From: a virus
IMG/VR virus record: IMGVR_UViG_3300049846_000905
Location: 1 to 32,062 of that record
Reading direction: 5' to 3' (one strand)
Length of the DNA: 32,062 bases
Shown here piece by piece: positions 6,372 to 29,466 of the stretch (position 1 is the first letter of the stretch; every line of letters begins with the position of its first letter). The notes below the pieces were generated by a model, which was not told where the DNA came from, did not search any database, and worked only from the letters and a program-made list of their open reading frames with translations. A program made the translations under genes and the position numbers.

Positions 6372-6863
6372 ATGTGGTACGCAGTTTCGGTAACACCGCG
6401 CTACGAGATTGATACCGCCAAGCGAATTTCCGAATCGGGTGTCGTTGCGTACTGTCCGACCGTCGAAAAAAAATACCGCCAGCGGCGTCACGTGGCAGAG
6501 TTTTCGCGGGTTAAATTCCGGCCGCTGTTCGGGGGGTATATTTTCATCCAGCCGGACGCGTCGTTTCGTAAAGATGCCTTTGAGGATTCACGGACCAAAC
6601 TAATTGTTTGGTGGCGCGTCAGGGTTTCGGAACAACAAATGGACATTGTGCGAGAGACGGAAACTGCGCTGGCGGAAGCGGCGAAGAAAACCCCCGGCGG
6701 GGTGATCGTCCGTGCCGGCGATGTTGTGGCTTTGCGCAATGCACTGTTCGCTGGCGAGAGCTTGCAGGTTTTAGAGGTTCGGAAGAACAAGCTCGTGGTA
6801 CAATCGGCGCGAATGGTTCGGCCGGTTACGGTCAAGGCAGATCAAGTGGAGCGGGTGGCGTGA
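6372..6863 (+). CDS. NusG-like (NGN/KOW) transcription factor, candidate late antiterminator
   Basis: A 163-residue protein. The NGN domain is at residues 1-60: it opens with WYAVSVTPRYE, contains VVAYCPTVEKKYRQRR, and ends with the diagnostic RPLFGGYIFIQ. A KOW-like domain lies at about 112-163 (VRAGDVVALRNALFAGESLQ, ending VKADQVERVA). NusG and its paralogues (RfaH, LoaP) bind RNA polymerase beta-prime and change pausing and termination. A phage copy just before the late genes is where lambdoid Q or P22 gp23 sits. The inferred role is therefore read-through of late transcription. GGAG precedes the ATG. It is coupled to the next gene by GTGA. Confidence 0.85.
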   Translation: MWYAVSVTPRYEIDTAKRISESGVVAYCPTVEKKYRQRRHVAEFSRVKFRPLFGGYIFIQPDASFRKDAFEDSRTKLIVWWRVRVSEQQMDIVRETETALAEAAKKTPGGVIVRAGDVVALRNALFAGESLQVLEVRKNKLVVQSARMVRPVTVKADQVERVA

Positions 6864-7459
6864 CGGATTTGCAAATGAAGCGGCACAACTGGTTCCCTAG
6901 CCGTCACGGCGTTGACGAGTGCGCGGTGTGCAGTCAGCCAGACTTTCCCGAGGTTGGAATTTTCTGCCCTGGCCCCAAGCCAGCCACCCCGGAGCCTGAT
7001 TTGGTCCGCATCGGTCGCCTGGGTCAGCAGGCTTACGGCCGCGCTGTCGCTGCGATCGTGAACGCCCCCAAGCCACCCACCACAGAGGCTCCGGCAGCAG
7101 CCCTTGAGGGCATGATCTGGCACGACACGACAGCAAACAAGATCGTAAAGCGCGTCGGTGGCGAGTGGGTTGACCGGGACGACAGGGAGTTTTTCGACGG
7201 CCCACAATGGGACACCCCGCGCGACCCCATCACCGACTTCATAGCCCGGCGGGTGGCAAGGCGGGGAGCCACGATGGCAGTAGATTTGGTAAAGCAGCCG
7301 TTTGGGTCAGGGCGCAAGCCTTGGCCTAACTCCCTACTGCACGAAGAGGACCAGTTAAAGTTAAAACGTAGGGACGAAGATTTGGACCGCGCCATGTCCA
7401 CCCCCAACCCACACGACACAGACATTCACACGCGGCTGATGCCGTACAGGGGGAAGTGA
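6860..7459 (+). CDS. Hypothetical protein with N-terminal Cys cluster
   Basis: A 199-residue protein. GTG at 6860 overlaps the NusG-like stop (GTGA); an ATG at 6875 is the alternative. Cys21, Cys24 and Cys36 (CAVC and IFC) may bind zinc. A middle segment, LEGMIWHDTTANKIVKRVGG, resembles the GLxWHDT element near the start of the tail fibre at 28249. That element is common in phage structural proteins and is probably a small beta unit. The C-terminal part is basic and hydrophilic. No membrane segment. It ends the early operon. Function not recognised. Confidence 0.65.
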   Translation: MTDLQMKRHNWFPSRHGVDECAVCSQPDFPEVGIFCPGPKPATPEPDLVRIGRLGQQAYGRAVAAIVNAPKPPTTEAPAAALEGMIWHDTTANKIVKRVGGEWVDRDDREFFDGPQWDTPRDPITDFIARRVARRGATMAVDLVKQPFGSGRKPWPNSLLHEEDQLKLKRRDEDLDRAMSTPNPHDTDIHTRLMPYRGK

Positions 7460-7934: not shown

Positions 7935-8198
7935 ATGGCGAAGGGCAAAAAAACGGGAGGGCGCGTCGCTGGCACGCCAAACAAATCCACAGCCGATATT
8001 AAGGCTCTCGCGCAAAAGCACACAGACGGGGCCATTGCCGAATTGGCCCGCCTTGCTGTGGGCGCTGAGAGCGAAGCAGCGAGAGTGTCAGCAATTAAGG
8101 AATTGCTTGATCGCGGGCACGGTAAGCCAAGCCAGCAGCTAGAACACACGGGCACCGTCAAGATTAGCCATGAACAAGCCCTTGAGGAGCTTACCTGA
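7935..8198 (+). CDS. Small terminase subunit candidate
   Basis: An 87-residue protein with a basic Gly-rich start (KGKKTGGRVAGTPNKSTAD) followed by a helical region (ALAQKHTDGAIAELARLAVG). This N-terminal type is frequent in small proteins directly before the large terminase. The gene ends 29 bases inside the large terminase gene. It would recognise the packaging site and feed DNA to the large subunit. It is much shorter than P22 gp3 (162 residues), so the call rests on position and general look. Confidence 0.6.
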   Translation: MAKGKKTGGRVAGTPNKSTADIKALAQKHTDGAIAELARLAVGAESEAARVSAIKELLDRGHGKPSQQLEHTGTVKISHEQALEELT

Positions 8199-9741
8199 CC
8201 GCGAGAGGGAAATTCGGCAGCGTCTCAAAGACGATTTCGCCCACTACGCGCCCCGGTGCCTCAAGGTCAAAACGAAGGTTGGCGGAATCGAGCCATTCGC
8301 ACTCAACGAAGTGCAACTGCACCTGCATGAACGTCTAGAGGCGCAACGCAAGCGTACCGGCAAGGTGCGCGCGCTCATTCTCAAGGGTCGGCAGCAAGGG
8401 TGTTCTACCTACGTTTCGGGCCGGTACTACTGGCGCGCAACGCACCGCAAGGGTTGCCGGGTTTTTATCCTCACCCACAGTCAGGACGGTACGGACCACC
8501 TTTTTGGGATGGTCGATAGGTTTCACGAAAACTGCCCGCAGATTGTTAGGCCGGTGACGGGTACGGCCAGCGCAAAGGAGCTTAGCTTTTCGGCGCTCGA
8601 CTCCGACTATCAGGTAGGTACGGCCGGCTCAAAGGCGGTTGGTCGATCGCAGACGATCCAGCTATTTCACGGGTCTGAGGTCGCGTTTTGGCCGAACGCT
8701 GATAGTCACGCCGCTGGCGTTATGCAGGCGATACCTGACGCGCCTGGGACAGAGGTCATTCTGGAAAGCACGGCGAACGGGCTCGGGAACTACTTTCAGA
8801 CGCAATGGGCGAAAGCTGAGCGGGGGAGCGGGGATTTCGAAGCCATCTTCGTGCCCTGGTATTGGTCGAAGGAATACCGGCGCGCGATTCTGCCTGATTT
8901 CCAACTGACGGCAGAGGAACGCGAATACGCCGACGCTTACGGCCTCGACAGCGAGCAAATGGCCTGGCGCCGCAATAAGGTAGCCGAGCTAGGGTACAAT
9001 TGGCTTTTCCGGCAAGAGTACCCTGCGACGGCGAGCGAGGCGTTTCAGGCAGGTGGTGATGGGTGCTTCATTCGCCCCGAACTGGTTTTCAAGGCTCGCA
9101 AGTTCAATGCGGGCGACGCGGGCGGGCCGCTTGTGGTCGGGGTTGACCCAGCGCGCGGCGGCGGCGATCGGACAGGCATCATATCGAGGCAGGGGCGTGT
9201 AGCGGGGCGGTTGGTTTGCGAGACGCTCGACACGGATGACCTGATGACAATTGTTGGCCGGTGCGTTCGCATTATCACTGAGCACAATCCGGTGCTGATG
9301 AACGTGGACGTTACCGGGCTTGGGGCTGGCGTGTACGACCGGCTCAAAGAGTTGGGTCATGCGGGGCCGGGCAAGCCGGTGAAGCCGGTGAACTTTGGCA
9401 GCGAGGCGACGCAACGCGAACGGTTCGCCAACAAGCGGGCCGAAATGTGGGACGACAAGAGGAAGTGGTACGAAGAGCCGGCCGGTGTGTCGGTTCCTGA
9501 CCGTGACGACCTACAGGCAGACGAGTGCTCTGTACAGTGGGGCAAGGGCGCGACGCGGTTCGATAGCAGCGGGCGCCTTGTGCTCGAAAGCAAAGATCAT
9601 ATCCGCGAGCGCATGAGCCTTTCGCCTGATCTGGGTGACGCATTGGCTCTCACGTTCGCCTTCCCTGTGGCCGCGAACATGGCCCAGGTGAAACTCTGGA
9701 CGCCACCGCCCGCCACCGGGCAATCATGGATGGGCCGCTAG
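8170..9741 (+). CDS. Large terminase subunit (packaging ATPase and nuclease)
   Basis: A 523-residue protein with the usual length and order. The ATPase domain has a Walker-A-like LKGRQQGCST (71-80), a Walker-B-like LFHGSEVAFW with catalytic Glu170, and the coupling motif ILESTANGLG (197-206). The RNase-H-like nuclease has GVDPARGGGDRT with Asp326, MNVDVTGLGAG with Asp380, and a C-terminal SPDLGDALALTF. It packs DNA into the prohead through the portal and cuts it when the head is full, together with the small subunit upstream. The portal gene begins at the base after its stop. No damage seen. Confidence 0.95.
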   Translation: MNKPLRSLPDREREIRQRLKDDFAHYAPRCLKVKTKVGGIEPFALNEVQLHLHERLEAQRKRTGKVRALILKGRQQGCSTYVSGRYYWRATHRKGCRVFILTHSQDGTDHLFGMVDRFHENCPQIVRPVTGTASAKELSFSALDSDYQVGTAGSKAVGRSQTIQLFHGSEVAFWPNADSHAAGVMQAIPDAPGTEVILESTANGLGNYFQTQWAKAERGSGDFEAIFVPWYWSKEYRRAILPDFQLTAEEREYADAYGLDSEQMAWRRNKVAELGYNWLFRQEYPATASEAFQAGGDGCFIRPELVFKARKFNAGDAGGPLVVGVDPARGGGDRTGIISRQGRVAGRLVCETLDTDDLMTIVGRCVRIITEHNPVLMNVDVTGLGAGVYDRLKELGHAGPGKPVKPVNFGSEATQRERFANKRAEMWDDKRKWYEEPAGVSVPDRDDLQADECSVQWGKGATRFDSSGRLVLESKDHIRERMSLSPDLGDALALTFAFPVAANMAQVKLWTPPPATGQSWMGR

Positions 9742-12126
9742 TTGGCACGCAAGAGCAAGCGCAGGGTTCCGCTGCCTCCGATGGAGATGGGCGGCGAAGG
9801 CGGCGAGAGCGCGGCTAACCCCGTGTACAACGACGCTGCCGAGCCCGTCGAAGACGACGAGCCCAAGGTCACGAAGGGTAAGCGCCTCACTGACGAGGAA
9901 ATGAAGCTCGCCCGTGAGCGGTACGAGCGCGGCATCAGCCGCGAGCAGGACAACCGCGAACAGGCGCGTGAGGACTTGCGCTTCAAGGTAGGCGACCAGT
10001 GGCCCGAGGCTGAACTGAAGCGCCGCGGCGATCGGCCGGCGCTGGTGTTCAACCGGATGCTGTCGTTCGTGCGTCAGGTCACGGGCGATATTCGGCAGAA
10101 CAAGCCTGCCATTCGCGTCCGCCCCAACGGGGACGGCGCCGACAAAGACACGGCTGAGATGTTCGCGGGCCTGATCCGCAACATCGAACAGCAATCCCAT
10201 GCGGGCTACATCTATGCCCAAGCGGCAGACGCCGCCACAAGCTGCGGGTTCGGGTATTTCCGTATAGTCACGGAGTACACAACGGCAGATAGCTTTGACC
10301 TGGACATCCGGCTCAAGGGAATCCCGAACCCGCTTTCTGTCGTGATCGACCCGGATGCGATGGAGCTTGACCGCTCCGACGCCCGGTGGATGTTCGTTTA
10401 TTCCACGCTCCCGAAAGAAGATTTCAAAAAGCAGTACCCGAAGGCGCAAATCCAAGACTTTGAGAAGCTGGACAAGGGCCTTGGCGGGTCGTCCTACTCG
10501 GATTGGTTCACATCGGACGGCGTTCGCATTGCGGAATACTGGTGCAAAGAGCCCTGCACCAAAAAGATTGCGATGCTCTCGGACAACCGGGTGATCTGCC
10601 TGGATGACTACGACGACGACAAGCTGGCCGAGATGATGGCCGGCGCAACGGTCGTTCGCACCCGCGAAGTGAAGACGCACAAGGTCGTTCAGCACATCAT
10701 CTCGGGTGCCGAGGAACTGGAAGACCCGACCGAATGGGCCACGGACGACATTCCGATCATCCCGGTTCTTGGCGAGGAAACCCACGTTGACGAGAACCGC
10801 GTCTCGTATGGCCTGATCCGGTTCGCGAAAGACCCGCAGCGGGCGCTAAACTACGCGCGGTCCACCTCGATCGAGGTCACGGCCCTACAGCCCAAGGCTC
10901 CGTACAAGCTGAGCGCGGCAATGATTGCCGGGTTTGAGCAGATGTGGAACAACGCAGGTTCTGTAAATTACCCGTATCTGTTGTACAATTCAGACCCGAA
11001 CATGCAGGGGCGCGCACCAGAGCGCGAACAGCCTCCGGTTCCTGCCGCTGGCCTGATCACAGAAGCGCAGATGGCCGCCGACGACATGAAGTCGATCACG
11101 GGCATCTACGACGCTGCCCTGGGCGCAAGGTCGAATGAGACAAGCGGACGCGCGATCAATGCCCGGAAGGAAGAGGGCGACGTATCCACGTTCGTCTACA
11201 TCGACAACCTGGCGCTGGCTATCTCATGCGCCGGCCGGCAGCTTATCAAGCTGATACCGAAGATTTACGACACCAAGCGCGTCCTGCGCGTGCTGTACGA
11301 TGACGGCACCGAAGAGAGCGTTAAGGCGAACGTCCCAGGCGTTGGCCGTAACGGTCAGATGAGCGTCATTCACGATCCGAAGCGCGGGTTTTACGACCTG
11401 ACCGTGGGTAAGTATGACGTGGTGGTTGAGGCAGGCCCAGGCTTCACGACGCGGCGCCAGGAAGCGGCCGAAGGCATCATGGAAATGATGCAGATACTCG
11501 GGCCCGCAGCGGCGCCGTTGCTTGGCCCCCGATTGGCGCAGTTGCAAGACTGGCCCGGCGCGACCGACATTGCCAACGACATGAAGAAGCTACTGCCGCC
11601 GCAGTTGCGTGATCCTGAGACGGGCCCGGACGGTCAGCCCTTGCCCCCGCCGGAACCGCCGCCAGACCCTGAGACGGTCAAGGCGCACGCTCAGATGCAG
11701 GTAGCCGAACGCCAGCACCAATTCGAGGTCGCCAAGGCACAGGACGATATGCAGCTTGCCCAGCAGAAGCAGCAGGCGGAATTGCTTTTGGCTCGCCAGC
11801 GCGCCGAAGCTGAGGCGCAACTAGCCCGCGACAAAGCAGAATTCGACATGCACCTGGCTGCGTTCAAGGCTCAGCAGCAAACGCAACTGGCCGCGCAGTC
11901 TCAAGCTGCCCGAACGGCGCTCGATGCGCGCGAGCAAGCCGAGCCCGAACCCAAGAGCGAGCCTGCTGCGGATATTGCGGCAGTGTTCAGCGCGCGCATT
12001 GAGGAATTTCTGGGCCGCATGGAGCAGAACAGCCGCCCACGCAAGCGCATCTTGCGCACGCGCCGGGATGTGGATGGCAACCTGATCGGTGAGGAAGAAT
12101 ACGTTGACGAGCAGGCTGGTGCGTAG
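9742..12126 (+). CDS. Portal protein, P22 gp1-like
   Basis: A 794-residue protein (P22 gp1 is 725). Landmarks of the P22-type portal: an N-terminal charged segment, FKVGDQWPEAELKRRGDRPA near residue 85, RPALVFNRMLSFVRQVTGDI, and GARSNETSGRAINARKEEGD near residue 465 before the crown region. Residues about 640-740 are a Gln/Ala-rich coiled coil matching the long C-terminal barrel helix. It forms the dodecameric ring through which DNA passes. The TTG at 9742 directly follows the terminase TAG; an ATG at 9781 is an alternative. The next gene overlaps by one base. Confidence 0.93.
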   Translation: MARKSKRRVPLPPMEMGGEGGESAANPVYNDAAEPVEDDEPKVTKGKRLTDEEMKLARERYERGISREQDNREQAREDLRFKVGDQWPEAELKRRGDRPALVFNRMLSFVRQVTGDIRQNKPAIRVRPNGDGADKDTAEMFAGLIRNIEQQSHAGYIYAQAADAATSCGFGYFRIVTEYTTADSFDLDIRLKGIPNPLSVVIDPDAMELDRSDARWMFVYSTLPKEDFKKQYPKAQIQDFEKLDKGLGGSSYSDWFTSDGVRIAEYWCKEPCTKKIAMLSDNRVICLDDYDDDKLAEMMAGATVVRTREVKTHKVVQHIISGAEELEDPTEWATDDIPIIPVLGEETHVDENRVSYGLIRFAKDPQRALNYARSTSIEVTALQPKAPYKLSAAMIAGFEQMWNNAGSVNYPYLLYNSDPNMQGRAPEREQPPVPAAGLITEAQMAADDMKSITGIYDAALGARSNETSGRAINARKEEGDVSTFVYIDNLALAISCAGRQLIKLIPKIYDTKRVLRVLYDDGTEESVKANVPGVGRNGQMSVIHDPKRGFYDLTVGKYDVVVEAGPGFTTRRQEAAEGIMEMMQILGPAAAPLLGPRLAQLQDWPGATDIANDMKKLLPPQLRDPETGPDGQPLPPPEPPPDPETVKAHAQMQVAERQHQFEVAKAQDDMQLAQQKQQAELLLARQRAEAEAQLARDKAEFDMHLAAFKAQQQTQLAAQSQAARTALDAREQAEPEPKSEPAADIAAVFSARIEEFLGRMEQNSRPRKRILRTRRDVDGNLIGEEEYVDEQAGA

Positions 12127-14492
12127 TGGCTATCAGTCACGCATTCACCAACCCGGTCGCAGACGGCACGGTAACGTCTATTGTCCGGCCGAGCGATTGG
12201 AACAGCGCTCACTTTCAGTACATGAGCGTGGCCGGCAACACAGCCGGGCAGTCCACGTTCTCCGGCACGAATATCGTCATTGGCGGCGGCGCGAATATCA
12301 CGCTGTCCGGGGTCAACGCGACCCGGTTTGACATCGTTGGCGGCGCAGGCGCTGCGGGTAATACCGGATCAATCAGCGCCGGCACGACGCGCGGCACGCT
12401 TGGCGAGATGGTGTTCTCGAACTCGAACGGGATATCGTTCGGGATCGACGGGCAGACGCTGACGGCGCAGCACAACGCGCTGACGACGGCACGGGCCAGC
12501 AACGACGCGGTTGGGCTGGCGACCGCTCAGTCGAATGTGACGTGGACCGTCAATAGCGCGGGGCTCAGCCTCGATGCGCGCGGCTACGCAGGTACGGCCA
12601 CCACATTTAACGGGGCCAACCTGTCAGGGTCCATGACGGTTAACAGTGCCGGGGTTAACCTGTCGCTGAGTGCCGGGAACTACCTCACCACGGCGAGGGC
12701 ATCTAACGACGCGATAGGGCTCAACACAGCCCAATCGAACGTCACCTGGACGGTAAACAGTGCCGGCCTGTCGCTGGACGCCAGGGGTTATGCCGGGACT
12801 GGAACGACCTTCAACGGGGCCAACATCTCCGGCTCGCTCACGGTCAACTCCAACGGGGTGCAGGTTTCGGCCAGCGTGGCGACGAGCCTGAGCAATATCC
12901 GGGTTTCGGCCGGCACCACGTCGAACCTGCTGAGCGCGGTTACGTTTGCAGATGGCAATGGCGTCTCGTTCGGCCTCAATGCCGGGACAGTGACGGGTAG
13001 CCACAACGGGCTGACTTCGCAGTCGAATCAGAACGTCACGGCGTCAAACGGCGGTTTCGCGTTTCAAACCCTCTCGTTCTCGAATGCGAACGGGCTCAGC
13101 TTCGGGACAAGCGCGGGCTCGGCGATCATTGCCAGCTACACGGTTCCGACCGTCACAAATTCGAGTTGGACCGTCTCGGACAATGCGAGCAGCGCTACGG
13201 TGGCGCGGTTGGCGTTCACCAACCTGAACGGGGTAACGCTCAGCCTCTCGACCGGGGCAAACGGGTCGCACACGATCGTCGGGTCGCACAATGCGCTCAC
13301 GAGCCAGTCAAACCAGGCATTCAGCGCGGCTGGCGGATCGTCGGCGTTCCAGACGCTGGGCTTCAGCGACACCAACGGGGTCAGCTTCTCGAACTCGAAT
13401 GGCTCGGTTGTCGCCACGGTTCGCACAAACTACGCCAGCAGTGTGCACGGGCATACCCTGTCGGCCTTTGCCGTCTCGAACACGACGCAATCGTCGAGCG
13501 GGACCATCGACATGGCAAACGTCTCGTTTGCTGGTGCGGGCGGGGTTTCGGTTGGTGTCTCGAATGGTTCGGTTGTTATTTCCGCTGCGGCTGGCGGCGG
13601 CGGTACGACGAACCAGACAGGCCCGAACATCGGCGTGTCGAACCTGGGCAATACGGCAGGCTCGACAGGAACGGTGTCAACCGGAAACGTGGTGCTGGTT
13701 GGTGCAGGTGGCATAACGCTCAGCCAATCGACTGGCGCAGTCGGGAGCGACGCCACGGTGACAATTCAAGGCGACGCAAAGACGATTTCGTCGCTTTTGC
13801 TGCAACCGTTTGCCGGGATGGCGGCTGGGATACCGTTCGCGCAAAGCTCGATTTCACTAGGGCAAAATTCGCTTTACCTTTACCCGTTCCAGTTAGAGGA
13901 CCACCTCACCGTCGATCATGCCAAAATTCCGGTGATGGTCACGCATTCTAGTTCGGCTGCCGCAAGTGTGCAAAAGGGGTACACATACCGGCTCGGTCTC
14001 TATTCCTACGCAAACTCAACGCAGCTAAGCCAACTCTACTCAACCAGCCACACGATGGCGGCGTCTCACAATTCCAACGCCTCGTGGATGGTCTCGATGA
14101 TCACGGCTATCGGGAACTCGACGAGCTACAACACGCTTTCAGCGTCTAGCGCAGGCTTGAACCTGTCAGCATCTCTGCATGGGCCGCGAGAGTTCATTCT
14201 GCCTATATCGACGCTGCTAACGCCTGGGCAATATGTGGTCGCACTAGCGGCTTCGACATCATCGGTTGGCGCTGGCGGCTCCATTTTGAACCTGTCCAAT
14301 ATCGTGGTGGCGGTGCAGACATTTAACCGCCCCGGTCTTTCGACCAACACAACAAACCGCGCTTTCTACAACGATGCTGGAATGGGGCTTTACTCGACGA
14401 CGACGGGCGCAATGCCAGCATCGATCGGCATGACCCAAATCAACCAGAACGGCACGCAGCCGCTTCTGTTTCTCGGTTCCGGAACGGTTTAA
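12126..14492 (+). CDS. Large repeat-rich fibre-like structural protein
   Basis: A 788-residue protein with a GTG start overlapping the portal stop. It is rich in Ser, Thr, Asn and Gly, with almost no Cys. The N-terminus (ISHAFTNPVADGT, then IVRPSDWNSAHF) is followed by many short beta repeats of the form NGVSFG...GS and SHNALTSQSNQ. Two adjacent 68-residue units start near codons 119 and 187. Residues after about 560 form a different C-terminal domain. This composition fits an extended trimeric beta-structured fibre or decoration protein. P22 has nothing here between portal and scaffold. It stands next to the glycosyltransferase and methyltransferase genes and could be their substrate; that is inference. 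Confidence 0.75.
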   Translation: MAISHAFTNPVADGTVTSIVRPSDWNSAHFQYMSVAGNTAGQSTFSGTNIVIGGGANITLSGVNATRFDIVGGAGAAGNTGSISAGTTRGTLGEMVFSNSNGISFGIDGQTLTAQHNALTTARASNDAVGLATAQSNVTWTVNSAGLSLDARGYAGTATTFNGANLSGSMTVNSAGVNLSLSAGNYLTTARASNDAIGLNTAQSNVTWTVNSAGLSLDARGYAGTGTTFNGANISGSLTVNSNGVQVSASVATSLSNIRVSAGTTSNLLSAVTFADGNGVSFGLNAGTVTGSHNGLTSQSNQNVTASNGGFAFQTLSFSNANGLSFGTSAGSAIIASYTVPTVTNSSWTVSDNASSATVARLAFTNLNGVTLSLSTGANGSHTIVGSHNALTSQSNQAFSAAGGSSAFQTLGFSDTNGVSFSNSNGSVVATVRTNYASSVHGHTLSAFAVSNTTQSSSGTIDMANVSFAGAGGVSVGVSNGSVVISAAAGGGGTTNQTGPNIGVSNLGNTAGSTGTVSTGNVVLVGAGGITLSQSTGAVGSDATVTIQGDAKTISSLLLQPFAGMAAGIPFAQSSISLGQNSLYLYPFQLEDHLTVDHAKIPVMVTHSSSAAASVQKGYTYRLGLYSYANSTQLSQLYSTSHTMAASHNSNASWMVSMITAIGNSTSYNTLSASSAGLNLSASLHGPREFILPISTLLTPGQYVVALAASTSSVGAGGSILNLSNIVVAVQTFNRPGLSTNTTNRAFYNDAGMGLYSTTTGAMPASIGMTQINQNGTQPLLFLGSGTV
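12480..12878. repeat. Tandem 204-base coding repeat in the fibre gene
   Basis: Unit 1 begins at 12480 and unit 2 at 12684, so the period is 68 codons. The proteins are nearly identical over the first 55 residues (both begin LTTARASNDA and share TAQSNVTWTVNSAGLSLDAR). Over the first 39 codons, 37 encode the same residue, yet only about 7 codons are the same triplet. The repeat is therefore strong in protein and weak in DNA. Confidence 0.85.
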
Positions 14493-14505
14493 GGAGTAGT
14501 AGAGA

Positions 14506-14775
14506 ATGGCAAAGCTTGCGATTGTGTGCGATGCGTGCACCGACATCATGGAGCAAAACGCGACCATCCATCTTGTCACGTACAAGGTGTTCGTAATCGA
14601 CAACGACACGGGTTTCCGTGGGCACATGCTCTGCACCACGTCAATCGACGCGTCGGACAACTCGAACAAGGTCCGCGAGGCTTACGTTGACGGGGTGGTG
14701 GCGTCCTGCGCGGAGCAGGGCATTACGCTGTCACGCGGTGACGTTGTTTCGCACCAGTTCTTCCGGGCGCCGTAA
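14506..14775 (+). CDS. Hypothetical protein next to the glycosyltransferase
   Basis: An 89-residue protein with a strong AAGGAG site 12 bases upstream. The N-terminus CDACTDI, later Cys residues and a mixed alpha/beta pattern (IHLVTYKVFVIDNDTGFRGH) suggest a compact domain. No signal peptide or membrane helix. The stop overlaps the glycosyltransferase start (TAATG). It may be a cofactor or chaperone for the fibre or the sugar enzyme, but the family is not recognised. Confidence 0.7.
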   Translation: MAKLAIVCDACTDIMEQNATIHLVTYKVFVIDNDTGFRGHMLCTTSIDASDNSNKVREAYVDGVVASCAEQGITLSRGDVVSHQFFRAP

Positions 14776-15503
14776 TGGGTCAGCCGGCGCAGATCGTCTC
14801 TTACGACTTCGGCGCTCACAACGGGGCGCTGGGCCGGGGCGAACACGTCCACGGCAACACGTGGAAGAAAGCGCGCGTCATCAAGGTCGTGCCGTCGGCG
14901 CAGATGATCGCGGCCAAGGTCGCGCTCAGCCACGAAAATCTGATCTTCCCCCCGAACCAGGGGGTGTACAAGATGCTGGTCACGGGCTGCGAGGTGGGCG
15001 ACGCCTACAGCCGGGCGGTCGAAATGATCATTGCGCACCCCGACCTGAGCCAGTGGGAATACTTGCTGACCGTCGAGAGCGACAACATCCCGCCCCCGGA
15101 CGGCGTGCTCAAGCTCATTCGCCGGATGGAAGACAACCCGCATTTGTCCGGTATCGGCGGGCTCTATTGGTGCAAGGGTCCGGGCGGGGCGCCACACATC
15201 TGGGGCGACATCACGGACCCGGTTGTGAACTACCGCCCTGTGATGCCGCGTCCCGGCGAACTCATCGAATGCTACGGCACGTCGATGGGCTTCAACCTCT
15301 GGCGCATGAGCATGTTCAAGGACGAGCGCTTGCCTAAGCCGTTGTTCCCGACCAAGGCCGGTATCAACGGCGTTGGTACGCAGGATTTGGCCTTTTGGGG
15401 CGAGGCGCGGAAGTACGGGTATCGCTGCGCGGTCGATTGCGACGTGCTGGTCGGCCACCACGATGCACAGGGGGCCTTCGGGCCGGCTGATTTCACATGG
15501 TAG
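14775..15503 (+). CDS. Glycosyltransferase, GT-A/GT2-like
   Basis: A 242-residue protein with the GT-A layout: a sugar-nucleotide region, then YLLTVESDNIPPPDG with the metal-binding ExD-like triad E101-S-D103. Next comes the acceptor-site loop GTSMGFNLWRMSMF (168-181), where family 2 enzymes have G-x-x-M/F-x-x-R. GTQDLAFWGEARKYGY (201-216) follows, where Asp204 stands in the catalytic ED position, and GHHD (227-230) holds the final metal His. It probably transfers a sugar to a protein or glycan in the cytoplasm. Unusual for a P22-like head operon; it sits between the fibre and methyltransferase genes. Confidence 0.8.
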   Translation: MGQPAQIVSYDFGAHNGALGRGEHVHGNTWKKARVIKVVPSAQMIAAKVALSHENLIFPPNQGVYKMLVTGCEVGDAYSRAVEMIIAHPDLSQWEYLLTVESDNIPPPDGVLKLIRRMEDNPHLSGIGGLYWCKGPGGAPHIWGDITDPVVNYRPVMPRPGELIECYGTSMGFNLWRMSMFKDERLPKPLFPTKAGINGVGTQDLAFWGEARKYGYRCAVDCDVLVGHHDAQGAFGPADFTW

Positions 15504-15622
15504 TCAAGCGCATCGTGCAGGTGAACATTCTCGACGACCGGATTTATGTCGCGTTCGACGGCGGCCCCTGGCGTCCAGCGACGGCTTCCGAGATTAAGGC
15601 TATTTTGAAGGGGTGCAAATGA
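15497..15622 (+). CDS. Small 41-residue protein between the modifying enzymes
   Basis: ATG at 15497 overlaps the end of the glycosyltransferase gene and the stop TGA overlaps the methyltransferase ATG (ATGA), so it fills the gap exactly. The protein is beta-like (VVKRIVQVNILDDRIYVAF) then DGGPWRPATASEIKAILKG. The WRPATASEIKAIL tail resembles ends of small beta-sheet proteins. Function unknown. The two coupling overlaps are the main support. Confidence 0.65.
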   Translation: MVVKRIVQVNILDDRIYVAFDGGPWRPATASEIKAILKGCK

Positions 15623-16230
15623 CCGCTTTGCTGAAACCTGTCCCGTCCCCGCTGAAACTCGACATCGGCTGCGGCAAGAACAAGCGCGAGGGGTTCCTTG
15701 GCGTTGACCTGTACCAGTTTGACGGCGTGGACGTTGTGCTCAATGTTGTGGCCGGTAAGTGGGACCCATACGACGATGCGCCGCGCAAATTCGAGCCGTG
15801 GCCCTGGGAAACCTCATCTGTTGACGAGGCCCATTCCTCGCACTTCGTGGAGCACCTGACCCCGGTCGAGCGCTGCCATTTCTTCAACGAGTTGTGGCGG
15901 GTGCTGAAGCCCGGCGCGCAAGCCACCATCATCACCCCCCACTGGTCGAACGCCCGCGCTTATGGCGATCCTACGCACCAATGGCCTGCGATTTCGGAGT
16001 GGTTCTACCTGTACCTCAACCGCGACTGGCGATCGGCAAACGCGCCGCATTCGGACGCTGAGAACTGGGCGCCGGGTTACAAGTGCCATTTCGAGGGTGG
16101 CTGTGTCACCACGGTCAACCCGCAACACCCGGAGCTGATGGGCAAGAACCCGGAAGCGCAGAACTATGCGACCCGGAATTTCATCAACGTCAACGTGGAT
16201 GCTTACGCGACGCTGACCGCGAAGAAGTGA
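15619..16230 (+). CDS. SAM-dependent methyltransferase, class I
   Basis: A 203-residue Rossmann-fold methyltransferase: motif I KLDIGCGKNKREGF at residues 13-26, GVDLYQ with the ribose-binding Asp (motif II), then a post-II acidic segment, SSHFVEHLTP (motif IV position), and WRVLKPGAQATIITPHW (motif V/VI). The VEHL and LKPG motifs are typical of sugar- or small-molecule methyltransferases rather than DNA enzymes. It likely methylates a sugar or side chain laid down by the adjacent glycosyltransferase; this is inference. ATG at 15619 was chosen over GTG 15613 because of the ATGA overlap. Confidence 0.85.
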   Translation: MTALLKPVPSPLKLDIGCGKNKREGFLGVDLYQFDGVDVVLNVVAGKWDPYDDAPRKFEPWPWETSSVDEAHSSHFVEHLTPVERCHFFNELWRVLKPGAQATIITPHWSNARAYGDPTHQWPAISEWFYLYLNRDWRSANAPHSDAENWAPGYKCHFEGGCVTTVNPQHPELMGKNPEAQNYATRNFINVNVDAYATLTAKK

Positions 16231-16234
16231 CCCT

Positions 16235-16681
16235 ATGGCGACAGCCTTTCAGGCCGATGCCTTTCAGGCTGACCCTCTCGCCTTCCAAATCGAGACGGCT
16301 CTAGCCGCAAGGCTAGGGCCAGCCGACGACCGCAAGCGCCGCCGCCCCGTCATCTACCTTAGGGCCGATGACGACGACCGCAAGCGCCGTGACGCACTTG
16401 AGGACGCTGAGGCCGCGATTGACCGCGCCAAGGCGGCCGAGACGGCGGCTAAGCGGCGCCAGGCGGTCAAACAGGTTTTTGCGGCCCTTGAGCGGTCTGC
16501 GAAGGATGAGGCGGAACGGGCGGCGCTGGCTGCCCAAGCCCAAGCCCTGGAACGGGCGAAGGTGGCGTTGGTCTGGCAAGCTCTTGCCGAGATACAGGCC
16601 AGCATCGACCGCGAGTTAGCGCTGCGCAAGATGCGGCGCGATGAGGAAGAGGAATTCCTGCTCCGCATGTGGGCAGGCTGA
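16235..16681 (+). CDS. Coiled-coil protein, unknown
   Basis: A 148-residue protein. The N-terminus repeats FQADAFQADPLAFQ, a motif common in small phage proteins of head operons. Residues about 50-140 are a long Ala/Glu/Arg-rich heptad coiled coil (KAAETAAKRRQAVKQ and following). There is no known domain. The position before the scaffold suggests an accessory assembly or internal head protein. Confidence 0.7.
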   Translation: MATAFQADAFQADPLAFQIETALAARLGPADDRKRRRPVIYLRADDDDRKRRDALEDAEAAIDRAKAAETAAKRRQAVKQVFAALERSAKDEAERAALAAQAQALERAKVALVWQALAEIQASIDRELALRKMRRDEEEEFLLRMWAG

Positions 16682-16732: not shown

Positions 16733-17623
16733 ATGTCTACTGTTGACGTTGTGCCATCGGCCCCCGTGGCTGATGCGCCCTCCACTACGCCTACTGCGGG
16801 CGACAAGACGCAGGTTGCGGCTGACAATCCCTCGGCCCCAGCCACCGAGGAAACTCAAGACGGTACGTCCACCGATGAAAGCACGGAGCCCAAGAAAAAG
16901 GGCGACGGCGGCTTTCAGAGAAGGATCAACCGGCTCACGGCTGACTTCCGTGCGGCAGAGGCGAAAGCCGCTGCGGCGGAGGCAACGGCCCGCGAGCTGG
17001 CTGCAAGGCTCCAAACCCAAACAACGGCACCCAGCGCAGACGACCCACGCCCGCCGCGTCTCGAAGACTTCCGGTCTTACGAAGAATACGAGCGCGCCGA
17101 TCGTGAGTTTGTAGCTCAAAAAGCTACGCGCGATGCCGAAAAGCGATTTAAGGCCGAGCAAGCGAGGGCGGAAAGAGAAGCCTTCGAAAGCGAGGAACGG
17201 CGCAGGGCCCTCGACGCGCGCAAGCGTTTCGAGACCAACGCCGAAGCCGTGGCGGAAAGCTACGAGGATTTCGCGGAAGTGATGGACGATATGTGGCGCG
17301 ACCGGATTCCGGTCATTAGCCGCAATCCCGCCATTGCCGCTTACATCGTCGAGGAATCCGACCGCGGCCCAGAGGTCGCCTATCACCTTGCGAACCACCC
17401 GGACGTTGCCGAACGCATCGGCAAAATGTCCCCGATGGGCCAGGTGAAGGAGCTTGTGAAGCTGGAGGCGTCGCTACCGAAGCCAAAGGCAACCGCAACC
17501 AATGCCCCGCCGCCGCCACGCAATGTCGGCTCACGGGGCGGCCCCGACGCTAAAGACCCTGCCAAGATGACAATCGACGAGATGCGCGCCGCAACGGGCA
17601 CGCGCCGGATCGTGAGTTACTAG
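16733..17623 (+). CDS. Scaffolding protein, P22 gp8-like by position
   Basis: A 296-residue protein, close in length to P22 gp8 (303). Residues 1-65 are acidic, Pro/Ser/Thr-rich and disordered. Residues about 66-180 are a highly charged Ala/Glu/Arg helical region (AEAKAAAAEATARELAARL). The middle contains ANHPDVAERIGKMSP, and the C-terminus is basic (TGTRRIVSY). A basic C-terminal helical end is what binds coat protein in P22. It drives prohead assembly and exits afterwards. It lies directly before the coat gene. The ribosome site is weak. Confidence 0.85.
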   Translation: MSTVDVVPSAPVADAPSTTPTAGDKTQVAADNPSAPATEETQDGTSTDESTEPKKKGDGGFQRRINRLTADFRAAEAKAAAAEATARELAARLQTQTTAPSADDPRPPRLEDFRSYEEYERADREFVAQKATRDAEKRFKAEQARAEREAFESEERRRALDARKRFETNAEAVAESYEDFAEVMDDMWRDRIPVISRNPAIAAYIVEESDRGPEVAYHLANHPDVAERIGKMSPMGQVKELVKLEASLPKPKATATNAPPPPRNVGSRGGPDAKDPAKMTIDEMRAATGTRRIVSY

Positions 17624-17671: not shown

Positions 17672-18907
17672 ATGGCAAACGCCCTAATTACCCCTACCGT
17701 CATCGCGAAGCGCGCGTTGATGAACCTCGACAACAACCTCGTGATGGGCAATCTCGTCTATCGCGACTACGACAGCGAATTCGGCCCGACCAAGATCGGC
17801 GATACCGTTACGATCCGCCGGCCGAATGACTTCACCGTCACGGACGGCGCCACGCTGAGCATCCAAGACCACACGGAAGGCTCGCTGACCATGCAGATCA
17901 GCAAGCGCAAGCACATTTCGTTTGTGTTCTCCGACTCCGACCTGACGATGACGGTTGACGACTTCGACAAGCGGTACATCAAACCGGCAGCAATCCAGCT
18001 CGCCAACCAGATCGACGTTGACCTGATGACGGCCGCCTACCAGGCGACCAACAATTGGGTGGGCACGCCGGGTCAGACGATCAACAGCCACGCTGACTTC
18101 CTGAAGGCGGTGGAGCGCCTGGACGTTCTCGCGGTGCCGCAAGGCGACCGCGCGGCCGTTCTGTCGCCGAACGACCATCACGGCTTGGCCGGCAACTTCT
18201 CCGGCATCTACATCCAGGGAGTCGCCGGGGATGCGCTGAAACAGGGCAAGCTGCCCATGATCGGCGGCGTCGATCCGTACATGACGCAGAACGTGGCGGC
18301 GCACACGGTCGGCGCACATGGCGGCACACCGCTGGTACGCGGCGCGGCGCAAAACGTCACGTATGCGTCGGTCAAAACGACCATGACGCAGACGTTCCAA
18401 ACGGACGGCTGGACGGTTGATTCGGGCTTGAAGGCGGGCGACGTGTTCACGATTGCGGGCGTGTACGATGTCAACCCGGTCACGAAAGCGACACTGCCGC
18501 ACTTGAAGCAGTTCGTGATTACGACCGATGTCACGACCACGAACCCGAACACCAACGCAACCGTGCTGACGATCTACCCGGCGATTATCTCATCGGGTGC
18601 GTATCAGAACGTCAGCGCAGCTCCGGCGGACAACGCGGCCATTACCTACGTGGGTACGGCCTCGACGATCTACCCGCAGAACCTCGTGTTCCACCGCAAC
18701 GCCTACGCGCTTGCGATGGTGCCGATTGCGCAGGCGCCGAGCGGCGCGGGCGTGTCGCAGTCCACTGAGCGCTACAAGGGGCTGTCGCTCCAGTGGTCGG
18801 CTCAGTACGACATCACGAATGCGCGCATGATCTACCGCCTCGATGCCATGTACGGCGTCAAAGCGATCGATCCGCGCCTTGGCGTTCGTGCAAGCGGTAC
18901 GTCGTAA
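17672..18907 (+). CDS. Major capsid (coat) protein, P22 gp5-like
   Basis: A 411-residue protein (P22 gp5 is 430). Family landmarks: ANALITPTVIAKRALMNLDN at the start, VYRDYDSEFGPTKIGDTVTI, the SDSDLTMTVDDFDKRYIKPA segment and ANQIDVDLM of the long spine helix, then VLSPNDHHGLAGNFSGIY and MTQNVAAH. This is the HK97-fold P22 subfamily with an inserted domain. It assembles on the scaffold into the prohead shell. AGGA precedes the ATG. A hairpin terminator follows, which could set the relative dose of the downstream genes. Confidence 0.95.
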   Translation: MANALITPTVIAKRALMNLDNNLVMGNLVYRDYDSEFGPTKIGDTVTIRRPNDFTVTDGATLSIQDHTEGSLTMQISKRKHISFVFSDSDLTMTVDDFDKRYIKPAAIQLANQIDVDLMTAAYQATNNWVGTPGQTINSHADFLKAVERLDVLAVPQGDRAAVLSPNDHHGLAGNFSGIYIQGVAGDALKQGKLPMIGGVDPYMTQNVAAHTVGAHGGTPLVRGAAQNVTYASVKTTMTQTFQTDGWTVDSGLKAGDVFTIAGVYDVNPVTKATLPHLKQFVITTDVTTTNPNTNATVLTIYPAIISSGAYQNVSAAPADNAAITYVGTASTIYPQNLVFHRNAYALAMVPIAQAPSGAGVSQSTERYKGLSLQWSAQYDITNARMIYRLDAMYGVKAIDPRLGVRASGTS

Positions 18908-18915
18908 CAACAAGC

Positions 18916-18947
18916 GGGCGGGGTCGCGTTGGCCCCGCCCTTTCTTT
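18916..18947 (+). terminator. Intrinsic terminator after the coat gene
   Basis: Perfect 8-bp GC stem GGGCGGGG (18916-18923) / CCCCGCCC (18933-18940), a 9-base loop, then TTTCTTT. It sits 8 bases past the coat stop and before the next gene. Read-through, perhaps helped by the NusG-like protein, would be needed to reach tail and lysis genes from an upstream late promoter. Confidence 0.8.
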
Positions 18948-25570: not shown

Positions 25571-26710
25571 ATGCCCGCGCCCTACGACTACACGGTCGCA
25601 CAGCCCAGCGTCTCAACGTATTTCGACGCGGCCCGGCAGGGGCGCGAGGATCGCTTGCGCGTTGAGCAAGACCAGCGCAACAGCGCTCTGTCGAAGTACC
25701 TGCCCGGCGCGCTTGAGGGCAACGAAGACGCGCAACGCCAGGCGCTCGCTACCGCCTCGCCCGATCAAATGATCCAGCTCAAGCAAACCTTCATGGCGAT
25801 GAAGGCGCCGGAAATCGAGCGGCTTCGCACGTACAACACGGAAGCCGCGTCGCTGGCGCAGTGGGCGGACGACCCGGGCAAGTGGGAGCAAGGCCTGACG
25901 ATGCTTCGGGAGAAATACCCGGACCTGCACAAAGACGCCCCGTTCGAGATGCGGGGTGCGATCGTCGCGCGCGCGACGACGGTGTCTCAGATGCTCGAAC
26001 AAGCCTACCGCGAGAAGATGCTCGCCAACGACACGAGCCGGACGCAGGCGCAGAACGCGGCAAGCTATGCTCAGGCTGAGGCGGCAAGGGCGCTTGCGTC
26101 GCGACGCGGCGTCGCTGGCGGCGGCGGCGCTCCGCTTCCGACGCGCGTCCAAACCGCAGAAGATGAAGACATCTCCGCAATTCAAACCACGCAATCTATC
26201 GGCACGCAGATAGACGTGGTTCTTGATCAGCTTCGGACCGGGCAACTTGAACTTGGCCCGGTTAACAACGTCGTTGGCGGTGCGCAGAATTATCTAGGCA
26301 TGAGCACACCGAACAGCCGCAACTTGGCAATGTTCCAGGCGACGCTTGAGAAGCTTCGGAACGATTCCTTGCGGCTTAACAAGGGTGTGCAAACCGAGGG
26401 CGACGCAGTGCGCGCGTGGAACGAAGTTGCACGTAGCATCAACGATCCGAAAGTCGTTGCCGCGCAGTTGATGCGTGTCAAGCGGCTAAACGAATTGGCT
26501 GCCCGGCAACGGCTGCAAGCGATCAACATTCGCCGCGCACGAAATGGCGCTGAGCGCTTCGACATGAGCACAGTGGACGCTGCGTCTCAACCTGCGCTTC
26601 CAGTGGCGCCGCAGCAAGGCCGTGGCCCCGCGCCCGGAACGATCGATGGCGGCTTTGAATTCCAGGGTGGCGATCCGGCCGACCCGAACAATTGGGAGCC
26701 CGTGCAATAA
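25571..26710 (+). CDS. Probable DNA-ejection protein 2
   Basis: A 379-residue mostly helical, Gln/Ala-rich protein. SALSKYLPGALEG lies at 38-50, a long charged coiled-coil section spans 60-170, a Gly-rich hinge (GVAGGGGAPLPTR) is near 180-192, and the C-terminus is Pro/Gly-rich. It lies where P22 has gp20 (471 residues). No enzyme motif. The stop overlaps the next ATG (TAATG). The ejection role is inferred from order, composition and neighbours. Confidence 0.65.
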   Translation: MPAPYDYTVAQPSVSTYFDAARQGREDRLRVEQDQRNSALSKYLPGALEGNEDAQRQALATASPDQMIQLKQTFMAMKAPEIERLRTYNTEAASLAQWADDPGKWEQGLTMLREKYPDLHKDAPFEMRGAIVARATTVSQMLEQAYREKMLANDTSRTQAQNAASYAQAEAARALASRRGVAGGGGAPLPTRVQTAEDEDISAIQTTQSIGTQIDVVLDQLRTGQLELGPVNNVVGGAQNYLGMSTPNSRNLAMFQATLEKLRNDSLRLNKGVQTEGDAVRAWNEVARSINDPKVVAAQLMRVKRLNELAARQRLQAINIRRARNGAERFDMSTVDAASQPALPVAPQQGRGPAPGTIDGGFEFQGGDPADPNNWEPVQ

Positions 26711-28230
26711 TGGCAGCCCCTTGGGAAAAGTACGCCCCCGCCGCAGTCCCGCCAGCGCAGCCCGCACCAGCGAAGCCGTGGCAGAAGTACAGCGCCCCAG
26801 CGGCCGCTCCCGTGGCCGAGCCGTCCCTACTTGAAAGCACCGGCTCCGCGCTTGGGCAGGTAGGGCTTGGCGTGCTCGAAGGCGCATCGAGCCTTCCAGG
26901 CCTTCCTGTGGAAGCGGGCGTGCTTCTCGGAAATCTCGCGGGACAAGTGACCGGCCAACGCTGGCGCTCAATCGAAGAAGACCCCAACTTAGCCAAATGG
27001 GGCGCAAGAGGTTGGTATGAAGCAGCGCAGCGCAATCTTGGTGTTCCGCAAGGCCCCGCCCCCGCAAACGGCGTCGAACGTGTCGCCCGTAAGCTCGGCG
27101 TCTTTGCCGGCGGCGCGTTACCCTTCGGCCCCGCCGCAATGGTCCCGGCCGCAACCGCTACAGCAGGCTCCGAGGTCGGCCGCGTCACGGATCAGGCTGG
27201 TCTTACGGGCGGTTATGGCGAGGCTGTGGGCGCGATTGCTGGCGGCATTGCCCCCGGTGCGCTTCGAGGCTCCGCAACCCGAGCCACACAGACCGGCGCC
27301 CCGTCAAACGACCAACTCCGCGAACTTGCAAAGACTGCCTACACCCAAGCCGACGACGCCGGGGTTGTGGTCAATCAGAGCGGGCTCAGCCGTCTTGCCC
27401 AAGGCATCCGCGAAGACCTTACCGCACTCGCCTTCCGGCCCAAGCTACAGCCGCGCGTTGCCGCCACCCTCGACGAAATAGACAACTCGCTTCAAGCGGG
27501 CAACGTCACGCTAAAAGACATTGACACGCTTCGCCGGGTCGCGCGCAACGCGATGACCGGCGCGGCGGACGATGCCGAGCGCGCTATGGCGTCGAAGATG
27601 ATCGATCGGATTGACGACTTCGTGGACGACATTGCGCCAAGCGAACTCGTGACCGGGAATGCGCAACAGGCGGCTACGGCCCTCAAGCAAGCGCGCGACT
27701 ACTGGAAGCGGCTGAAGAAGTCCGAGTTGATCGACGATGCGGTGGAGCGTGCTGAACGCCGCGCCGCGTCAACAGGCACAGGCGGCAACACCGACAACGC
27801 AATTCGGCAGAACATTCGGGCGATCCTGGACAACCCTAAGAAAGCCCGGATGTTCACAAAGCAAGAGCGGATGCTTATGGACCGGGTTGTGCGCGGCACG
27901 GCATCGCAAACGGCGCTGCGGATGCTTGCGGGCCTTTCGCCTGATAAGGGGTTTTTCCCCTTGCTTGTGACGGGCGGTGCGTACCTTGGCGGCGGTCCGG
28001 CGGCCCTTGCTCTGCCGGCGGCCGGGTACGCGGCACGCCAGGCGGCGGAAGCGTTTACGGGCGGTAATGTCTCCCGCCTGTCCGAGGCGGTTCGAGGTGG
28101 CGCACGGGCACCCCTGACCCGCGCACAAGCCCTACAGGCGGCCTTTGAGGAAGCTCAGCGCCGTGCGGCGCTTATGGGGCAGACCGGCCGGGCGGCCGTC
28201 CCTGGCGCCCTGACGGGCCAAGGCAACTAA
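26710..28230 (+). CDS. Probable DNA-ejection protein 3
   Basis: A 506-residue protein. The N-terminus has two PWxKY motifs (PWEKYAP at 4-10, PWQKYSAP further on), common at the start of large phage internal proteins. Gly/Ala-rich hydrophobic segments lie near 135-195 (VFAGGALPFGPAAMVPAATA) and 430-460 (FFPLLVTGGAYLGGGPAALA). These may insert into the host membrane. The central part is helical and charged. It lies in the place of P22 gp16 (609 residues). The ATG at 26710 overlaps the upstream TAA. Confidence 0.65.
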   Translation: MAAPWEKYAPAAVPPAQPAPAKPWQKYSAPAAAPVAEPSLLESTGSALGQVGLGVLEGASSLPGLPVEAGVLLGNLAGQVTGQRWRSIEEDPNLAKWGARGWYEAAQRNLGVPQGPAPANGVERVARKLGVFAGGALPFGPAAMVPAATATAGSEVGRVTDQAGLTGGYGEAVGAIAGGIAPGALRGSATRATQTGAPSNDQLRELAKTAYTQADDAGVVVNQSGLSRLAQGIREDLTALAFRPKLQPRVAATLDEIDNSLQAGNVTLKDIDTLRRVARNAMTGAADDAERAMASKMIDRIDDFVDDIAPSELVTGNAQQAATALKQARDYWKRLKKSELIDDAVERAERRAASTGTGGNTDNAIRQNIRAILDNPKKARMFTKQERMLMDRVVRGTASQTALRMLAGLSPDKGFFPLLVTGGAYLGGGPAALALPAAGYAARQAAEAFTGGNVSRLSEAVRGGARAPLTRAQALQAAFEEAQRRAALMGQTGRAAVPGALTGQGN

Positions 28231-28248: not shown

Positions 28249-29466
28249 ATGTCAGGACGCGACCCTCTCTCCGGGGTAACACCCGTTGACGCCAACGGGA
28301 ACCCCTACCCGCTCGCAACGATTGATTACTACATCGTCGGCACGACCACGCGGGAAGACACTTACACCACGGCGGCGCTATCAGTAGCGAACTCGAACCC
28401 CATCACACTGGGCGCCGACGGCCGCATTCCCGAGATTTTCTTCAGCCAGACCCGCATGAAGCGGGTGTTCAAGGATTCGAGCGGCAACACGATCAGCGGC
28501 CTTTCCTGGGACGGCATCGACAAAGACCTAGGCCGCGTTAAGGCTGCCTCTGCCCCGTCCCCGACCTACCCGGGCCTTGAGTGGCACGACACGTCAACCG
28601 GCGACCTCAAAGAGCGCAACGCGGCGAATACCGATTGGATCAATCGCGGCCCCGTTGACAGCGTGGGCAATACGGCAAGTGTCACGGAAACGCTTACGGG
28701 CACGGCGACGGACAAACTCGTCACCCCCGATAGCCTTGCAGCGCTCTGGCAACGTGGCACGAACTTGACCCCAAGCGCGGGTACGGTATCCCTTCCCTCA
28801 ACGGGCGGCGGTGCGTACAACGTGGCAGCCGGGAACTTCTCGGCTATCTCCACGGCGCAGGGTGGGCGCGAAGTCGAATTCACCTTTGGCGGCGTTTCGG
28901 TCATCACTCACAACGCGACTTCGCTTGACCTGCCCGGCGCGGCGAACATCACGACCGTTGCTGGAGACATCGCCAAGTTTCGCAACAAGGCGGCGGCAGA
29001 CGCTTCTGGCACAAATTGGGAATGCACGGTCTACACGCGCAATTCCGGGTCACCGCTAAATATCACCGATCAACTCGGCAGCCAATCCGATGCCGAGACT
29101 GGCACGTCAACAACCAAGACGTTGCCCATCAGCCTCATGAAAAACCTGGCGCTGATGCCCAAAGCGTGGGTCAATTTTAACGGGTCTGGCACATTGGCAA
29201 TAAACTCTGATGCGGGCGTCAGCTCTGTCACGGATAACGGGACCGGAGATTACACAGTCAATTTTGACACGGCTTTCAGCGCCTCAACGGCATACAACGC
29301 CGTAGGCTTCGCCCGGTACAGCACCACCGGTATCGCCGGTCTCATCAGCGCACAATCCGGCGATTCCAAGACAACAACGGCGTTCCAGATTGGGACAGCC
29401 AACTCCACGTCTGCGGTTCGCGTTGATAGCCCAGAAGTTGGCATGGGCTTCCTTGGCGACCAATGA
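28249..29466 (+). CDS. Tail fibre/tailspike-like receptor-binding protein
   Basis: A 405-residue protein. Residues about 1-80 look like a particle-binding N-terminal domain of podovirus fibres: NGNPYPLATIDYYIVGTTTR, then SNPITLGADGRIPEIFFSQT and RVFKDSSGNTISG. GLEWHDTSTGDLKERNA follows. The rest is Thr/Ser/Asn/Gly-rich beta structure. No lyase or endosialidase residues are evident, so enzymatic activity cannot be called. AAAGGA precedes the ATG. It probably contacts the host surface. Confidence 0.8.
   Translation: MSGRDPLSGVTPVDANGNPYPLATIDYYIVGTTTREDTYTTAALSVANSNPITLGADGRIPEIFFSQTRMKRVFKDSSGNTISGLSWDGIDKDLGRVKAASAPSPTYPGLEWHDTSTGDLKERNAANTDWINRGPVDSVGNTASVTETLTGTATDKLVTPDSLAALWQRGTNLTPSAGTVSLPSTGGGAYNVAAGNFSAISTAQGGREVEFTFGGVSVITHNATSLDLPGAANITTVAGDIAKFRNKAAADASGTNWECTVYTRNSGSPLNITDQLGSQSDAETGTSTTKTLPISLMKNLALMPKAWVNFNGSGTLAINSDAGVSSVTDNGTGDYTVNFDTAFSASTAYNAVGFARYSTTGIAGLISAQSGDSKTTTAFQIGTANSTSAVRVDSPEVGMGFLGDQ

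Follow-up and report, generated by a model that had tools for sequence, protein, structure and literature searches.

A fibre with a recurrent C-terminal domain (CTD), a GT-A glycosyltransferase (GT) and a SAM-dependent methyltransferase (MT) are encoded together between the portal and scaffold genes of a P22-type podovirus. Relatives keep this block as a unit, a check that had been proposed in the initial annotation of this DNA: the fibre CTD, GT and MT were found together in approximately 85 distinct phage sequences. On balance, sequence comparisons and structure models favour a transferable cassette for fibre glycosylation, in which the sugar would probably be attached on or near the CTD.

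Gene layout and genomic setting

The window (the whole stretch of DNA that was analysed) is a fragment, 32,062 bases long, of a P22-type podovirus from IMG/VR (portal, coat and scaffold types all match). The following features were located in and around the cassette:

8170-9741, TerL
9742-12126, + strand, P22-type portal protein, left border of the cassette (PF16510, 1.4e-184; phrog_156, 6.1e-149)
12126-14492, + strand, fibre, 788 aa, GTG start (ORF; 36% S/T/N; internal repeats)
13836-14489, + strand, fibre CTD, about 200 aa, predicted beta-sandwich (iterated HMM; model pLDDT 75.6)
14506-14775, + strand, 89-aa protein, role not assigned (no convincing family match)
14775-15503, + strand, GT-A glycosyltransferase (GT), 242 aa (predicted GT-A fold; invariant motifs)
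15497-15622, + strand, 41-aa protein, insert between GT and MT (ORF)
15613-16230, + strand, class I SAM-dependent methyltransferase (MT), 205 aa as listed (Methyltransf_11, 1.8e-5; phrog_6636, 6.4e-9)
16235-16681, + strand, 148-aa protein upstream of the scaffold, outside the conserved cassette (ORF)
16733-17623, + strand, head scaffolding protein, right border (phrog_8865, 1.6e-39)
17672-18907, P22 coat (PF11651, 2.7e-57; phrog_283)

All of the ORFs named in the initial annotation were present where it had placed them. Its calls of a Ser/Thr/Asn-rich fibre (36% Ser+Thr+Asn), a GT-A-like enzyme (predicted GT-A fold with a pLDDT of 87, though the GT2 sequence score is sub-threshold) and a SAM methyltransferase (Methyltransf_11, 25.7 bits against a cut-off of 21.2) were borne out, and the P22-type arrangement that it had taken for comparison, with the scaffold directly after the portal, was seen in Vibrio phage VvAW1. 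The block, put at about 4.5 kb, measured 4.1 kb. The five proteins listed for the portal-scaffold gap were all there, but the list was incomplete, given that the 148-aa ORF (16235-16681) also precedes the scaffold.

The genes from portal to scaffold lie on one strand, and their ends overlap or almost touch. The fibre start and the portal stop have one base in common, the ATG of GT overlaps the stop of the 89-aa ORF as TAATG, and GT shares 7 bases with the 41-aa ORF (ATGGTAG, the conserved last Trp and the stop of GT). An ATG at 15619 overlaps the stop of the 41-aa ORF and is likelier to be the real MT start than the listed one. In GC content the cassette genes resemble the rest of the window, so they do not form a compositional island. 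A separate cassette promoter was looked for in the window and none was seen, and a search for defence-system matches returned none. Among phage records, the portal was most similar to that of VvAW1 (40%), and a portal-seeded scan of viral contigs recovered one relative and no more.

Elsewhere in the window, a strong terminator-like hairpin (18916-18940, 11 pairs) followed by a T-rich stretch lies directly 3' of the coat gene, and a 512-aa protein (26692-28230) matches phrog_21712 ("major head protein", 3.8e-38) despite the P22-type coat at 17672-18907. A second fibre candidate is found in a late position (28249-29466; phrog_11355, tail fiber, 8.6e-11), and the fibre of the cassette is therefore probably an additional one.

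Recurrence of the fibre domain and both enzymes

Viral contigs were collected by using GT and MT as separate, independent seeds; the CTD was not a seed for these contigs. As the contigs are related and unevenly sampled, the resulting counts are not of independent events: MT was present on 36 of the 36 GT-seeded contigs and GT on 79 of the 80 MT-seeded contigs, with the partner on the same strand. In the lone exception (L091), only about 300 bases separate the MT start from the end of the contig, and a GT may be missing because of the cut. Counted by distinct GT sequences (n = 93), 92 were accompanied by MT. A CTD protein accompanied 85 of the 89 distinct GTs for which this was testable and was absent from four, while four further loci were cut by a contig end. 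The CTD ORF lay upstream of GT in 88 of 90 cases. Of 88 contigs, 64 had a listed MT ORF that started inside GT or no more than 25 bases from its end, and an overlap of 7 bases was common. Strict GT-MT overlap as a universal rule was ruled out, given that the two genes are more than 300 bases apart in 17 of the 88.

GT and MT without a CTD were seen on four contigs (L077, L078, L096 and L100), and a CTD without GT on two short ones (L120 and L126). The clearest exception to the unit is L077 (7263-8552), where GT and MT lie beside replication genes with no fibre upstream.

The remaining small proteins behaved differently from these three. No tblastn match to the 89-aa protein was obtained in any fetched relative, nor any convincing family match; among the same relatives the 41-aa protein recurred in L002 only (59% identity); and the 148-aa protein gave only a 26-residue match, in L080. 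By this comparison the 89-aa and 41-aa proteins are outside the conserved unit. The initial description of all five genes as a self-contained unit thus holds strongly for fibre CTD, GT and MT and fails for these two.

GT, MT and CTD co-diverge. Their pairwise identities correlate, modestly (Mantel r of 0.34 for GT-MT, 0.27 for GT-CTD and 0.34 for MT-CTD; p = 5e-4 for each), and in a small sample of P22-type loci (n = 8 to 10) the correlations within the cassette (0.47-0.67) exceeded those with the coat (0.19-0.45).

In four relatives (L022, 8386-8901; L023, 1091-1513; L063, 7240-8004; L112, 4022-4609), endonuclease VII, GIY-YIG and HNH ORFs lie exactly between GT and MT, as if homing endonucleases used this junction.

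Passive linkage, in which a variable cargo slot gathers fibre and enzyme genes that share no function, would account for homing-endonuclease-like ORFs (endonuclease VII, HNH, GIY-YIG) in the GT-MT gap of several relatives, which are a mark of a recombination hot-spot, and for the sporadic occurrence of the 89-aa and 41-aa inserts. Random cargo would not, however, be expected to keep three families in one order across some 85 distinct sequences, wherever in the genome the cassette lies, and this explanation is very improbable.

The fibre and its C-terminal domain

The fibre contains 15% Ser, 12% Thr and 9% Asn, with Lys and Glu at 0.4% each. CTD-bearing proteins of relatives are similarly composed, with a mean of 34% Ser, Thr and Asn versus 18% in other ORFs of more than 250 aa at the same loci. 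The protein is built from a conserved N-terminal motif (VRPSDWN), a repetitive shaft in which a unit of about 68 residues recurs, and the CTD; matches to the N-terminus and to the repeats were found in relatives.

An iterated HMM of the last 200 or so residues recovered 130 ORFs (worst E 1.5e-7) and no reversed decoys. The proteins found range from about 236 to more than 1,200 aa, and in all of these ORFs except one the CTD ends within approximately 30 residues of the C-terminus. Identities to the window were 17-34% for CTDs and 46-84% for GTs, and mean identity was 0.24 for the CTD versus 0.62 for GT. Because the CTD alignment was too divergent for a pattern scan, single CTDs were used as queries.

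The CTD model (mean pLDDT 75.6) is a beta-sandwich. Its top structure matches were domains of the mycobacteriophage Bxb1 tail tip (9d93 chain Pa, 218-404; Z 10.9) and the cyanophage A4 capsid (9jwb chain Z; Z 10.6), which have the same beta-sandwich arrangement at 8-15% identity; a sequence profile of the CTD gave no match in PDB. Lectin-like folds (galectins, CBMs) came next and were weak (Z about 5). A sequence search of PDB returned no significant relative for the CTD or for the whole fibre.

The acceptor of a glycan on the fibre would most likely be on or near the CTD, since this is the only part of the fibre common to nearly all cassettes. Some cassettes have only CTD proteins of about 240 aa, and a long Ser/Thr/Asn-rich shaft therefore cannot be a required acceptor.

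Several loci depart from the single-fibre layout. In L044, two CTD proteins of about 240 aa (6501-7235 and 8941-9651) flank GT-MT beside a P22-type coat, and the same was seen in L121-L125. In L126 (3141-4623), such short proteins, consisting of the CTD alone, follow a P22-type coat gene one after the other, and the C-termini of the short CTD proteins in L044 and L126 are nearly identical. An apparent CTD-GT fusion in L088 was rejected; a frameshift in the CTD, which then reads into an upstream extension of the GT frame, is the likelier cause.

The predicted glycosyltransferase, methyltransferase and dehydratase-like protein

GT scored 13.2 bits against Pfam Glycos_transf_2 (GT2), short of the cut-off of 23.3, and it was therefore filed by its GT-A fold only and not as a member of that Pfam family. 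The model (pLDDT 87.1) gave 219 PDB matches at E ≤ 0.001, the best 50 of which were mostly GT-A enzymes. Best among the matches listed were STIV A197, lysyl hydroxylase LH3, mimivirus R699, COLGALT1 and SpsA. Several of these fold matches are protein glycosyltransferases. GT-A folds serve many acceptors, however, and a fold match leaves the choice of substrate open. The best match, the viral GT-A enzyme STIV A197 (PDB 2c0n), superposes with TM scores of 0.57/0.70 at 13% identity and has no sequence relationship to GT by profile. Invariant in 87 GT sequences are E101-x-D103-N104, T-Q-D-L, D204 and H228; these would supply a metal-binding acidic motif and a catalytic acidic residue.

In MT, motif I reads DIGCG, and its glycines are invariant in 86 sequences. 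It is the linkage of this gene that points to a sugar O-methyltransferase. Neither enzyme has a membrane-spanning segment (maximum 19-residue hydropathy of 1.17 for GT and 1.19 for MT). Searches of Pfam, PHROGs and NCBIfam with CTD, GT and MT gave no named family beyond generic methyltransferase and weak GT matches.

A gene resembling NDP-glucose 4,6-dehydratases lies between GT and MT in at least eight contigs (L005, L006, L009, L035, L078, L080 and L094, in all of which STDE and YxxxK motifs were checked and found, and L097). The proteins match PF01370 (E to 1e-47) and TIGR01181 (E to 1e-73, below the equivalog cut-off). The window has no such gene. Where present, the gene links GT and MT to nucleotide-sugar chemistry and suggests a 6-deoxysugar that is later methylated, at least in those phages.

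The same genes could be read as acting on the host: GT and MT would remodel a surface glycan bound by the CTD fibre, so that progeny avoid infected cells or debris, or rivals are excluded, and the linkage of fibre and enzymes would come from dealing with one receptor. The weak likeness of the CTD model to carbohydrate-binding beta-sandwiches (galectins, CBMs; Z about 5) is consistent with this, and the linkage of the enzymes to the CTD and their co-divergence with it fit too. A deoxysugar pathway with methylation is also known from O-antigens. Yet GT is conserved (0.62) and the CTD evolves fast (0.24), which is unexpected if both track a variable receptor, and the enzyme genes have virion genes for neighbours and, in many relatives, share bases with the fibre gene. 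Gtr-type serotype conversion cassettes, moreover, have a membrane flippase and membrane-anchored GTs; the block has no flippase-like partner and no membrane segment in GT or MT. Remodelling of a host glycan is considered unlikely, and less likely than modification of the fibre.

Proposed function and relation to known systems

In the preferred reading, fibre glycosylation, the cassette would encode a virion-attached fibre of which the N-terminus and repetitive shaft vary and the CTD defines the family. Inside the infected cell, the translationally coupled GT-A enzyme would transfer a sugar from a nucleotide sugar to this fibre, and the coupled methyltransferase would then cap the sugar. The dehydratase-like third enzyme of some relatives may supply a 6-deoxysugar precursor.

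Virion glycosylation has been established in few phages. One mark of such a system is a phage-encoded GT beside virion genes, with a methyltransferase, and this is the arrangement found here. PMC11600133 (citing Freeman 2023) reports GTs next to an O-methyltransferase that modify mycobacteriophage capsid and tail tube, and virion glycosylation is described for mycobacteriophages Che8, Corndog and Myrna (Freeman et al. 2023, via PMC11600133 and PMC12363180); PMC12619734 is a further precedent for mycobacteriophage GT and O-methyltransferase genes that act on capsid and tail tube. What is alike is that virion proteins are modified by GTs that the phage itself encodes, with an O-methyltransferase gene alongside in cluster O. 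The acceptors differ: they are capsid and tail tube subunits in mycobacteriophages, whereas the constant partner in the cassette of the window is a fibre CTD. Virion glycosylation is thus already known in kind, and the module of CTD, GT and MT is new.

With approximately 90 distinct, mostly uncultivated metagenomic phage sequences carrying the module, many phages may carry a surface fibre decorated with a methylated sugar. The module offers a sequence signature for finding phages with possible sugar-coated fibres and names the likely acceptor. GT, methyltransferase and dehydratase genes that are counted as metabolic in viral surveys may partly serve virion decoration. A bolder proposal, which we regard as quite doubtful, sees CTD-GT-(dehydratase)-MT as a widespread plug-in of mostly uncultivated phages. 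It would place a defined methylated (deoxy)sugar at the tip of a surface fibre, and contact with hosts or particles would be mediated by that sugar itself and not by the protein alone. If true, this would be a class of sugar-presenting adhesins not known from cultured phages.

Probable mobility and distribution

The closest relative, L002, is 84% identical to the window in GT and 72% in MT. DNA matches between the two cover the fibre, GT, the 41-aa ORF and MT, with none in the flanks, and the capsid of L002 belongs to phrog_334 where that of the window belongs to phrog_283. Across relatives, the cassette occurs with TerL of phrog_2, 38, 979 and 3717, with portals of phrog_156, 1216 and 3753, and with several major head families (phrog_283 in the window, phrog_334 in L002 and L003, and others). 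The genes beside it belong for the most part to the virion group (terminase, portal, scaffold, major head, head-tail adaptor and tail). Even among P22-type relatives its position varies, being after the portal in L016, L022, L033, L042, L057 and L085, before the portal in L017 and L037, and after the coat in L044. These sequence comparisons are best explained if the cassette is transferable as a block between phages with different capsid, portal and terminase families.

The variety of capsids also bears on a rival reading, in which the target of the two enzymes is phage DNA or a virion protein other than the fibre (coat or decoration protein) and the fibre is a mere neighbour. The glycosylated mycobacteriophage proteins are capsid and tail tube (PMC11600133, PMC12363180), the cassette is often beside coat, portal or scaffold genes, and the GT and MT of L077 adjoin replication genes without a fibre. 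The constant companion is, however, the CTD (85 of 89) and not the coat, and because several capsid families occur with the cassette, no single coat protein can be its fixed partner. Such a target is rather unlikely.

Among 50,697 phage records, tblastn with GT matched three only, which were of equal identity and length and derived from one metagenome; no isolated phage was matched, and the CTD gave no tblastn match in the phage records. GT was not found in plasmids, and among genomes of 84,980 species it was found in two MAG contigs only. The cassette would thus seem to be typical of phages that are seldom cultivated and seldom integrate. A full cassette is carried by the metagenome-derived Podoviridae sp. 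ctKR88 (MW202524) from Manatee Spring, with a CTD protein, an extra methyltransferase, GT (annotated "has synthase", 58%) and MT (45%). In that genome the cassette comes after the major capsid gene and is preceded by three genes whose annotations are glucosyltransferase, gtA and yqgM-like.

On a contig of a Planctomycetota MAG (L118, WSZJ01000102.1; 2711-7277), a regulator ORF of sigma-54 type adjoins an MT, a diverged GT (37%) and a CTD that is broken across two frames. These genes may be a cassette copy that has decayed in a chromosome. Directly downstream of its coat gene, another P22-type phage (L116, MW202573.1; 10178-11364) carries a methyltransferase unlike MT and a GT with an A197-like annotation, a pair that is possibly a parallel invention.
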